Of a stretch of DNA of 34,151 nucleotides, positions 12,194 to 34,151 are shown piece after piece (position 1 is the first letter of the stretch; the number at the start of each line of letters is the position of its first letter). Source of the DNA: Bacteroidota bacterium. Lineage in GTDB: Bacteria > Bacteroidota > Bacteroidia > Bacteroidales > UBA7960. The notes below the pieces were generated by a model that had not been told where the DNA came from, did not search any database, and saw only the letters and a program-made list of their open reading frames with translations. The stretch is taken from assembly GCA_018335675.1 (NCBI GenBank), contig JAGXRQ010000041.1, forward strand, positions 1-34,151. Direction: 5' to 3'. The translations under genes and the position numbers were made by a program.

Positions 12194-12265
12194 ATGATTT
12201 TTTTGAGACAATCACGTTTGTAATATGCTTGATTTTAAATTTCATGAAGCTTCGTAGTATTTAAC

Positions 12266-12345
12266 ACATCGGCACATTAGCAAATTAGCACATTGGCACA
12301 TTTACACATTGGCACATTAGCACATTGGTAAATTAGCAAATTATC
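12266..12345. repeat. Tandem array of ten 8-bp units
   Basis: Ten uninterrupted 8-base units fill the intergenic space between dus and the AEC gene: acatcggc, acattagc, aaattagc, acattggc, acatttac, acattggc, acattagc, acattggt, aaattagc, aaattatc. The phase is exact; variation is limited to a few positions (C/A at base 2, G/A/T at bases 5-6). Unrelated in sequence to the GCGCAGAGG arrays. Confidence 0.9.
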
Positions 12346-27744: not shown

Positions 27745-27780
27745 TAAAAGGAGTATTAAAATTTAATTTTAAAATATTTT

Positions 27781-27798
27781 CGCGCAAAGGCGCAGAGA
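27781..27798 (+). repeat. GCGCAGAGG-type repeat, copy A
   Basis: CGCGCAAAGGCGCAGAGA: two units, GCGCAAAG and GCGCAGAG. It lies between the first RND permease and the GxxExxY stop codon, and is in inverted orientation to copy B on the other side of that gene. Confidence 0.85.
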
Positions 27799-27819
27799 GT
27801 AGTAAATGTTACCCAATTT

Positions 27820-28197
27820 TCATAGATTGTTTACAATTCTTACAATACCATCTTTAATAAGATTGACATTGAAATTCACCAATAATCCGAGTTTTAATTC
27901 TGTAAGCTTTAAATACGTTAATAATTGTTTATGATGAACTGGGGCAAGCATTTCTATTGACTTAATTTCAATAATTACTTTGTTTTCAATAATAATATCT
28001 GCGCGAAACCCAATATCCATTTTGACATTATTGTAAACAACAGGAATTCCTTGTTGACGTGTAAATTTTAAATTTGAATTTTGTAATTCGTAACAAATAA
28101 TTTCTTCATAAACACTCTCTAGTAATCCAGGACCAAGCTGCTTATGTATTTTTAAAAAAGTATCTACAAGTATTTTCGATATTTCATTTTCTTTCAT
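27820..28197 (-). CDS. GxxExxY protein (PD-(D/E)xK nuclease-like)
   Basis: A compact 125-residue protein. The family name motif is exact: G24-L-L-E27-S-V-Y30 within QLGPGLLESVYEE. The core GFRADIIIENKVIIEIKSIE has Asp67, Glu77 and Lys79 in the spacing of a PD-(D/E)xK nuclease fold, and HHKQLLTYLKL follows with the Gln/Tyr helix often seen in that fold. Full length, with no frameshift. Members occur in Bacteroidota, Verrucomicrobia and others, often in several copies; the function is unknown. Here the gene stands between an RND adaptor and its permease and is bracketed by inverted GCGCAGAGG-type repeats. Nuclease activity and mobility are inference. Confidence 0.93.
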   Translation of the reverse strand: MKENEISKILVDTFLKIHKQLGPGLLESVYEEIICYELQNSNLKFTRQQGIPVVYNNVKMDIGFRADIIIENKVIIEIKSIEMLAPVHHKQLLTYLKLTELKLGLLVNFNVNLIKDGIVRIVNNL

Positions 28198-28250
28198 TTG
28201 CTTTTTTTGAAAAAAATTCCTTTTTGTTAAAAATAAACATAAAATAAACT

Positions 28251-28303
28251 TTGCGCCCTCTGCGCCTCTGCGAGAAATATTATCTGCGCCTCTACGTGAT
28301 ATT
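28251..28303 (-). repeat. GCGCAGAGG-type repeat, copy B (two blocks)
   Basis: Block 1 (28251-28274) reads ttgcgccctctgcgcctctg then cgag on the + strand; block 2 (28283-28303) reads tctgcgcctctacgtgatat. Both are the complement strand of copy A, so A and B are inverted around the GxxExxY gene. Confidence 0.85.
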
Positions 28304-32510: not shown

Positions 32511-32738
32511 TTAGAAACAGTTAGATTCACCACGCCAACATCTTTTGGTAGTCCAACATGTGCTAGAGCCATCGCCATTTGCATAACAACCAGTATCAGG
32601 AAAAGCTCTACATGTGCAGTGAACTTTCATTTCATCACCTAAGCTGTCTTCAAACGCTTGTGCTTCTTGTTTAGGCGTTAAAATCATTAAACTAAAAATG
32701 ATAAAAAATGTAGCTAAACTTAAAATTTTCTTTTTCAT
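32511..32738 (-). CDS. Small secreted six-cysteine peptide, NVEALA-like
   Basis: A 75-residue precursor: signal peptide (KKKILSLATFFIIFSLMIL), a likely cleavage after KQEAQA, then a mature part of about 47 residues with cysteines at 41, 43, 51, 61, 67 and 74, two Trp and a C-terminal Cys-Phe. The EAQA-FED junction resembles the NVEALA motif of small secreted Bacteroidota peptides, which commonly sit beside propeller lipoproteins; the match is loose. Six cysteines suggest up to three disulfides. The thioredoxin-like gene upstream and the hairpin downstream fit a highly expressed secreted peptide with helper proteins. The function is unknown; signalling, metal binding or toxin roles are possible. 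Confidence 0.75.
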   Translation of the reverse strand: MKKKILSLATFFIIFSLMILTPKQEAQAFEDSLGDEMKVHCTCRAFPDTGCYANGDGSSTCWTTKRCWRGESNCF

Positions 32739-32961: not shown

Positions 32962-32989
32962 CTCTGCGCCCTCTGCGCCTCTGCGTGAG
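32962..32989 (-). repeat. GCGCAGAGG-type repeat, copy C
   Basis: The + strand reads ctctgcgccctctgcgcc then tctgcgtgag, the same orientation as copy B. No GxxExxY gene is beside it. Confidence 0.85.
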
Positions 32990-33251
32990 ATTATTCTAAT
33001 ATTTCTAAATGCTTGTTAATCATAAACTATCGAAAAACGTATATATATTAATCATGTCTATACAATCCAATAAATCAGGATATATAAAAATAAAACATCA
33101 AAAGTATTATTCAAGATAGCAAAAGTAATAGATTAACTGCATTGCGGGCAAATGTAAATAAAATTTAAATTGATTGTTTTTTTTTTTTTATTTTTTAACT
33201 TTTGAAGGTAATAATTAAGGTTTAGTATGTAGAAATCAATTAATTGTTGGT

Positions 33252-33282
33252 CTCGCGCAGAGAGCGCAGAGGGCGCGGAGGG
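33252..33282 (+). repeat. GCGCAGAGG-type repeat, copy D
   Basis: The + strand reads ctcgcgcagagagcgcag then agggcgcggaggg: three to four units in the orientation of copy A, inverted relative to copy C. Confidence 0.85.
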
Positions 33283-33315: not shown

Positions 33316-33915
33316 TTACAGATTCCTTTCCAAAAATGAAATATATTCGTTGAAGAATAACTTATCATTTATAAACTCCAGTGGTAATACCCACCTAACA
33401 GTTAAATTATTATCAATGATTAATAATGCTGAATTATTTGTAAAAGAAATACTGTTGTGGTAAATATCTTCATTTGTCCAAACAATTTTACTATCGCTAA
33501 TTTGTTCTTCCATCTTTGCTTCCTCAATTATTGAAAGATTGTTTTTGTGAGAAACTATAAGAAATGGATCAAGACACCCTAATCTATAAATTATTTTTCT
33601 TACAGTTTCAATATAACAATCTGAGCATGCATTCTTTTCGAGAAACAGAACAGCAACTAATTTTTCTTTTTTTAATAATTGCTCATGGAAATCATCCTGA
33701 ATTGCCAACTCTTTACCATTTTGGTTGAAGTTTTCTCTTAATGTAGCATTGAGGAATTCAATTTTATCATGTGAATTATTTAACTCAATTTCATACTGTT
33801 CTCTTATTTTTGAAATTTTGCTATTTTGTTTGAATAAGACAAATAGGCTGTAAAAAACAAAAACGCTTAAAAGAATTCCAATAATGGTTTTATTTGAAAG
33901 CTTGAATTTTCTCAT
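33316..33915 (-). CDS. Membrane-anchored thioredoxin-like protein with CSDC motif
   Basis: A 199-residue protein: N-terminal membrane anchor (about 9-28, TIIGILLSVFVFYSLFVLF), a charged helical, possibly coiled-coil stretch (about 30-65) and a thioredoxin-like domain (about 85-199). The active-site-like motif is C97-S-D-C100 after VAVLFLEKNA, followed by ETVRKII; the cis-Pro position is not obvious. The domain probably faces the periplasm and could form, isomerise or reduce disulfides, with the six-cysteine peptide encoded downstream as an obvious candidate substrate. This link is inferred from proximity. The IS30 gene ends only 25 bp upstream, so its native promoter may have been displaced. 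Confidence 0.7.
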   Translation of the reverse strand: MRKFKLSNKTIIGILLSVFVFYSLFVLFKQNSKISKIREQYEIELNNSHDKIEFLNATLRENFNQNGKELAIQDDFHEQLLKKEKLVAVLFLEKNACSDCYIETVRKIIYRLGCLDPFLIVSHKNNLSIIEEAKMEEQISDSKIVWTNEDIYHNSISFTNNSALLIIDNNLTVRWVLPLEFINDKLFFNEYISFLERNL

Positions 33916-33940
33916 TTCTAATTATTATTAATTGCTGAAT

Positions 33941-34151
33941 TCAAGTCACAAATGCAACTTTTTGTTTAATCAAATTTAATGATAAAAATTCAATTGGTGA
34001 TAAGAACCCCAATTTTTTTCTTGGTCTGTTATTTAACTTGTGTTGAACATATTGAATTTGTTGATTAGTAATATTTTCAAAAGAAGACCCTTTAGGAAAG
34101 TATTGCCTGATAAGCCCATTTATATTTTCATTAGCACCTCGTTCCCATGAA
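33941..34151 (-). mobile_element. IS30-family transposase, C-terminal part
   Basis: The open frame enters from the right edge and ends at TGA (33941-33943), 69 residues. It reads SWERGANENINGLIRQYFPK, then KLNNRPRKKLGF and SPIEF, the classic IS30 C-terminus with the catalytic-Glu helix and the NNRPRKxLG signature of the integrase core. The rest of the gene and the far inverted repeat are outside the window. The near inverted repeat should lie around the stop codon, close to the thioredoxin-like gene. Confidence 0.95.

Follow-up and report, generated by a model that had tools for sequence, protein, structure and literature searches.

Arrays C and D, two inverted sets of short repeats that enclose a gene-less interval, are probably solo end arrays of a family of small mobile cassettes built on a GxxExxY nuclease. 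The DNA analyzed (34,151 bp, hereafter the window) is contig C41 of a draft Bacteroidota genome of 3.36 Mb in 150 contigs, and the features relevant to this reading are as follows.

27777..27800, plus strand: array A, left end of the GxxExxY cassette
27820..28197, minus strand: GxxExxY gene, 125 aa, predicted PD-(D/E)XK nuclease (TIGR04256, 138 bits; PF13366, 132 bits)
28248..28300, minus strand: array B, right end of the GxxExxY cassette, with one full and one degenerate unit set
32511..32738, minus strand: secreted-looking Cys-containing peptide ORF, 75 aa
32860..32955, plus strand: conserved hairpin RNA candidate adjoining array C, with a TAnnTTTG promoter-like box, CACCTCCTTTC, a long stem and a terminator-like T run
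32962..32989, minus strand: array C, three units of 8–9 bp (plus-strand letters CTCTGCGCCCTCTGCGCCTCTGCGTGAG)
32990..33251, no strand: C-D interior, 262 bp, gene-less, 79.4% AT compared to 66.6% for the whole window
33252..33280, plus strand: array D, three units (CTCGCGCAGAGAGCGCAGAGGGCGCGGAG)
33316..33915, minus strand: 199-aa ORF with an ACSDC motif, thioredoxin-like at best

The 75-aa ORF had no Pfam or NCBIfam match at E up to 5, and the best match of the 199-aa ORF, Thioredoxin_9, was below the cut-off (E 0.11). A tandem repeat of period 8/16/24 (TTAGCACATTGGCACA) at 12261–12343 is possibly another array flavour. The window contig ends in a repeat, as its last 218 bases (33934–34151) are shared without any difference with the end of contig C92.

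The original prediction described C and D as inverted to one another around some 260 bp of AT-rich DNA without a gene, in the opposite order (C-rich strand first) to the arrays around the GxxExxY gene, and both statements were confirmed, the former by reading and measurement. The reverse complement of C was identical to D in 26 of 29 columns (2 mismatches, 1 gap; score 40), and C-D thus has the terminal inverted repeats that are a trait of MITEs, while the ORF list of the window contained no ORF of at least 70 aa within the interior. The G-rich strand is the minus strand in C (CTCACGCAGAGGCGCAGAGGGCGCAGAG) and the plus strand in D, and in both arrays the outer side, TCTCAC in C, is turned toward the interior. 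Gene-bearing cassettes have their TCTC sides outermost and the G-rich strand reading into the element, whereas the TCTC sides of C-D face each other, such that inward polarity is absent. C and D had also been described as longer than the arrays at the GxxExxY gene, which holds relative to A but not relative to B, whose 27 bases aligned with C make it equally long.

All four arrays share one flavour, with CGCAGAG ends. C was identical to B, located 4.7 kb away, at 25 of 27 bases, and D differed from A and from B by one mismatch and one gap each. The exact 9-mer GCGCAGAGG occurred three times in the window compared to 0.07 expected, and a two-unit pattern matched six times in the window, compared to no match in 18 of 20 Markov shuffles, one match in another and two in the last.

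Inverted arrays were a frequent property of the flanks of GxxExxY genes. Among 98 related genomes, 44 had TIGR04256 matches, and the window's own genome had six such genes. We fetched 94 loci from related genomes, in 92 of which the gene was recovered, and 80 named loci, the best 80 of 581 from a scan of species genomes; by title, these were mostly Bacteroidetes, along with Cyanobacteria, Acidobacteria, Planctomycetes, Verrucomicrobia, Roseiflexus, Geobacter, Desulfobacteraceae and others. Of 172 loci, the 162 with 150 bp or more to either side of the gene were used to compare the two 180-bp flanks. Inverted similarity reached a score of at least 24 in 111 of the 162 loci and at least 30 in 85, compared to 5 and 1 of 130 far-flank controls, 60 and 26 of 485 cross-locus comparisons, and 7 and 2 of 98 other ORFs with intergenic flanks, a control that includes two stretches themselves holding GxxExxY genes. 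Scores were below 24 in 51 of the 162 loci, and direct similarity of at least 24 was also common (62 of 162) because arrays are often repeated on both sides. A de novo search for 7-mers over-represented near the genes (within 250 bp of 95 matches at 92 loci) returned, among others, array words (ACACAGA, 36 vs. 3.9 expected; CGCAGAG, 25 vs. 4.2 expected) and AT-rich words. Since flavours vary, a strict two-unit pattern detected arrays at only 26 of 92 genes and none at 66; the commonest arrangement under this pattern was inward (10 exact inward vs. 1 exact outward, the rest being one-sided or mixed). End similarity climbed with protein identity, with the fraction scoring at least 30 increasing from 0.02 at 30–40% to 0.65 at 70–80% identity, a trend that includes same-site orthologues and that plain common descent would predict as well. 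The number of arrays of this flavour did not differ significantly between the 44 genomes with GxxExxY (mean 2.55) and the 54 without (mean 1.39, p = 0.14). Another control, a reversed-pattern array, was not neutral, as the reversed word is close to an array variant. At two loci (L022, L138), GxxExxY genes lie beside a very different, CCTTATATGCCTTATATGG-like repeat.

Comparisons among loci pointed to movement of the cassettes. Cassette-sized homology was detected at different loci in the pairs L123/L124 (87% over 487 bp) and L169/L170 (91% over 481 bp), and the shared sequence was limited to the gene and ~40–75 bp per side in these two pairs and in L103/L134, L167/L168 and L105/L127. L093/L120 share the gene alone, and L106/L124 and L109/L127 are whole orthologous loci. 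One orthologous site holds a CGCAAAA-ended cassette in G004 and G017 and a CTCAAAG-ended cassette in G010, with flanks that are 87% and 83% identical between G004 and G010. Within the window's genome, L296 retains the left array and pieces of both gene ends, ~30 bp from one and ~18 bp from the other, followed by a right array that is shortened, and on this sequence it is a deletion derivative of a GxxExxY cassette; L313 in G010 and L314 in G017 are partially deleted. Together with the flank statistics, these comparisons give good support to the view that arrays form the ends of mobile cassettes and that gene-less forms of such cassettes exist. GxxExxY genes were carried on four plasmid records, and no phage record contained a relative of the window GxxExxY protein. 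No clean empty site was found for the A-B, L123 or L124 cassettes; the flanks of L123 were on different contigs and the site of L124 holds another cassette. A candidate empty site for A-B in G021 was rejected because the orthologous contig ends after three array copies. This site (G021:C168; L178 and L083) is the orthologue of the left side of the A-B cassette and carries three direct copies of the array plus ~90 bp, followed by the contig end.

Pairing of arrays was also assessed for the CGCAAAA flavour, which has 61 ends in the window's genome, compared to 1 for the reversed pattern, with 24 of the 61 being single. Among 19 neighbours within 250 bp, 12 were inward (binomial p = 0.0005 against 0.25), 5 facing and 2 tandem, in a list that includes two-mismatch matches and whose entries are not independent since the C83 pair repeats the C100 element. 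All five facing pairs were spaced 53–55 bp, and the four facing units that were read had a conserved, near-palindromic spacer. Facing end-spacer-end units of this flavour are found at L307, L308, L311 and G000:C69:2297-2371, the C69 spacer being outside those read. For the CGCAGAG flavour, one gene-less pair, which is facing, and copies of it were found in the genome. Random scatter of single arrays, which the original prediction had set against its pairing of C with D, described most of a 397-kb sample of G075 (22 loose-pattern matches, 3 neighbour pairs within 700 bp, mostly single) but not the CGCAAAA arrays of the window's genome.

The assignment of the GxxExxY protein to the PD-(D/E)XK nucleases is well supported by the Pfam match and a predicted model (mean pLDDT 94.5). 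G22, G24, E27, Y30, D67 and K79 (window numbering) were kept in all 26 A1 and 30 A4 proteins, and E77 was invariant in A4 and nearly so in A1. The best match of the model was 4ic1 (SSO0001; Z 9.2, rmsd 5.2, 102 aligned), and it also resembled restriction enzymes and the archaeal Hjc resolvase (1gef; Z 7.0, rmsd 3.3, 86 aligned). Foldseek with the same model returned no match at E 0.001 or better, and searching solved structures by sequence yielded no more than a weak match to Endonuclease I (E 0.79). PADLOC defence models did not match any of three GxxExxY proteins, and in PHROGs the window protein had a single weak match, to a CRISPR-associated entry. This nuclease family is not known to carry out transposition chemistry.

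The original prediction offered two origins for C-D, either a non-autonomous derivative resembling a MITE or two decayed cassettes whose ends face each other, and this interpretation was borne out in part. Gene-less derivatives of cassettes exist, but a canonical MITE is not supported for C-D, given its inside-out polarity, the absence of a nuclease remnant and the lack of an evident target duplication. Neither a nuclease gene nor a remnant was found between C and D, either in the ORF list or among the six TIGR04256 matches in the genome (E 0.001), all of which are elsewhere, and no target-site duplication was evident by eye at the flanks of C-D and seven inward elements. Internal deletion from an autonomous element was likewise not supported as the origin of C-D, since its interior contains no nuclease remnant, in contrast to L296. 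Facing cassette ends would have the polarity seen here, but the six GxxExxY matches of the genome include none located just outside C or D, and a decayed GxxExxY cassette at C-D itself was discarded because none of the six is at that place.

Copies of the C-D block occur elsewhere in the same genome. An array search allowing up to three mismatches gave 17 matches, of which five (C4, C84, C94, C96 and C144) were, by eye, isolated matches and not arrays, and the other 12 were in A, B, C and contigs C22, C29, C92, C109 and C150. D was missed by this search owing to one extra base, and an array in C30, cut by an IS110-like element, was found with a search using the C-D region. The 481 bp around C-D had matches in C29, C92, C109, C150 and C30. 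Alignment of the window with C29, C92, C109 and C150 revealed a single conserved interior between D and C, which was alignable wholly or partly with all four contigs. A breakpoint at array C between two types of interior was considered and rejected, since the alignment shows two diverged homologous interiors. C29 ends at window position 33167 and C150 starts at 33162, each adjoining IS sequence, and the two are probably parts of a single copy that an IS interrupted, generating a short target duplication. In both C109 and C150, position 33280, where D has its inner edge, is the limit of homology to the window, and homology between C109 and C92 ends where C starts; in C109, the sequence to either side of the block is different. 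One more unit set of ~25 bp adjoins C in C29 and D in both C109 and C150. D is missing from C92, which retains the interior and C, and C109 has a degenerate C only and no hairpin. From these differences, end units are, as aligned, gained or lost as whole units of ~25 bp between paralogous C-D copies. Upstream of related peptide-type loci the D-interior-C block occurs again, and the interior, on the same alignment, appears to have been copied with or among such loci.

Several observations concern the contigs that carry these copies. Positions 1–86 of L283 (C109) and of L309 (C138) are exactly identical and then diverge inside the array, one continuing into D and the other into a unit of another flavour, which may be an assembly fork, a duplicated site or strain variation. 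One end of the IS110-like element, assigned by its first residues, abuts the array at GCGCC in L012 (C22, near 1495–1540) and in L029 and L281 (C30, near 280), which suggests that the element targets arrays. A Bacteroidales small SRP RNA gene is located at 1312–1418 of L012 (minus strand, contig C22), with an array ~75 bp off, and this gene probably places the organism in that order.

The hairpin RNA candidate beside C had a predicted fold of −37.4 kcal/mol (z −4.05) in the window. In an alignment of 18 hairpin sequences, both sides had changed in 4 of 20 predicted pairs and many pairs were invariant; no Rfam family matched at the gathering threshold, with noise only at E up to 10. The start of the hairpin resembles the 3′ end of 16S rRNA. 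A DNA search of 59 genomes, including the window's own, gave matches in 17, with 10 relatives matching the hairpin or much of it and the other 6 showing a short interior match. The hairpin was divergent from a short ORF for a Cys-containing peptide (64–106 aa, 67–322 bp away) in 17 of the 21 loci fetched, the search having listed further matches beyond these. The short peptides are presumably NVEALA-like; Pfam and NCBIfam searches gave no family match for peptides of the hairpin loci. In one relative (L033, G010), an array lies 16 bp past the hairpin. The gap between hairpin and gene is 355 bp in the window, 319 bp of which are C-interior-D, compared to 18 and 30 bp, without arrays, before a CSxxC-type-motif gene in the relatives L043 and L052. 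These short gaps are no more than suggestive of an insertion of C-interior-D, because the gap is 585 bp, also without arrays, in a third CSxxC-type relative (L051), and gaps before other genes range from 59 to 751 bp.

The copies and gaps bear on whether C-D moves as a whole. The occurrence of the interior on four other contigs, with homology ending at D or C, leaves room for whole-unit relocation, and C-D could be a discrete end-spacer-end unit of ~320 bp that inserts entire, like the CGCAAAA facing units at 53–55 bp. The arrest of homology at 33280 in C109 and C150 and at the start of C between C109 and C92, with other sequence on both sides of the block, would be expected of such a unit, as would the short L043 and L052 gaps and the five facing pairs of the other flavour, with their constant spacing and a spacer conserved in the four read. 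The copies are nonetheless upstream of similar peptide-type loci, such that locus duplication accounts for most of them, and C92 has the interior and C but no D, the L051 gap is long without arrays, no target duplication was seen at C-D, and the assembly is a draft in which one contig pair forks inside an array. On balance, we regard insertion as a single unit as unlikely, if the strongest of the alternatives.

Mobilization of the arrays by another enzyme, such as a Y1 or IS110-type transposase, with the GxxExxY nuclease as a passenger or defence gene, appears more doubtful still. One end of the IS110-like element does abut arrays in C22 and C30, and the nuclease family is not known for transposition chemistry, but the flavour of the ends tracks the nuclease sequence and deletion derivatives are bounded by the same ends; a defence role also sits poorly with the lack of PADLOC matches for three proteins and of phage records with a relative of the window protein. 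We consider it improbable, and the least credible of these explanations, that C and D are two independent intergenic repeats, unlinked to the nuclease and gathered by chance around a conserved regulatory region. In its favour, solo arrays were common in G075 and the count test against GxxExxY presence was not significant, but the near identity of C with B, which forms one end of the GxxExxY cassette 4.7 kb off, speaks against it, as do the association of this class of arrays with GxxExxY genes and the deletion derivative of a cassette in the same genome.

The reading of C and D as solo cassette ends can be set out as follows. A complete cassette comprises ~480–600 bp, with inverted arrays of ~8-bp units around one gene for a small PD-(D/E)XK nuclease, and the lineage with CGCAGAG ends is represented by the gene-bearing copy 4.7 kb from C-D. 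C-D would be a gene-less, non-autonomous, facing-ends form of this lineage, since it has the lineage's ends without the gene and with the outer sides face to face; the facing polarity is unusual for an element and counts against cassette ends. We infer that the nuclease binds or cuts the arrays and that host repair following a cut copies ends or cassettes to new places, by which C and D would have been positioned. The interior would then serve as the upstream region of peptide-type loci and be copied with or among them. We give even odds to the broader proposal that a class of miniature mobile elements not described so far, found in many phyla, is made up of GxxExxY genes and their inverted 8-bp-unit arrays, with a small PD-(D/E)XK nuclease as the sole gene, an own end for each nuclease lineage, gene-less derivatives, solo ends and rivalry for intergenic sites, in which C-D would be an inside-out member resembling the junction of neighbouring or circularized copies.

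Known systems share part of these properties. Classical MITEs are internal-deletion derivatives of insertion sequences bounded by inverted ends. Derivatives of the L296 type, with inverted ends, are alike, whereas the sole cassette gene here encodes a PD-(D/E)XK nuclease, C-D is inside out and no target duplication was seen. RAYTs are tyrosine transposases of the HUH type, associated with REPINs. Accounts of REPIN/RAYT systems (PMC3116915, PMC3733652) describe a single nuclease-type gene bordered by short intergenic repeats, singlets and inverted doublets that lack the gene, and a repeat type tied to its gene, all of which have counterparts here. Inverted doublets, a REPIN trait, were found as inward pairs in 12 of 19 close CGCAAAA neighbours and, facing, in the one gene-less CGCAGAG pair and its copies. 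Those systems differ in having a tyrosine transposase, compared to a PD-(D/E)XK gene by family and predicted fold here, and in having GTAG or CGTC palindromes, compared to arrays of 8-bp units among which facing doublets also occur. C and D, as read from their sequences, are non-palindromic and carry no GTAG or CGTC tag. By analogy, the GxxExxY-array system is similar to REPIN/RAYT in its workings and does not pass as one by its enzyme or its type of repeat. The BrickBuilt MITE of Porphyromonas gingivalis (PMC4596501) is likewise intergenic and gene-less, with tandem units and small inverted ends, but its 23-nt tandem repeat is inside the element whereas the 8-bp units here are the ends, and no nuclease gene is named in its abstract. 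The nuclease encoded between A and B belongs to the GxxExxY family (TIGR04256/PF13366), and none of the listed open-licence literature matches linked this family to arrays, mobility or bounding by arrays. Searchable open-licence literature also yielded no explanation of CGCAAAG-, CACAGAT- and CGCAGAG-type repeats.

Short, quasi-periodic intergenic repeats such as the CGCAAAG, CACAGAT and CGCAGAG arrays occur in many bacterial genomes. If true, the link between arrays and nuclease would give such repeats a testable origin and would represent a REPIN-like system built on an unrelated enzyme, and within the window, the odd gene-less pair C-D would become an identifiable part of such a system.
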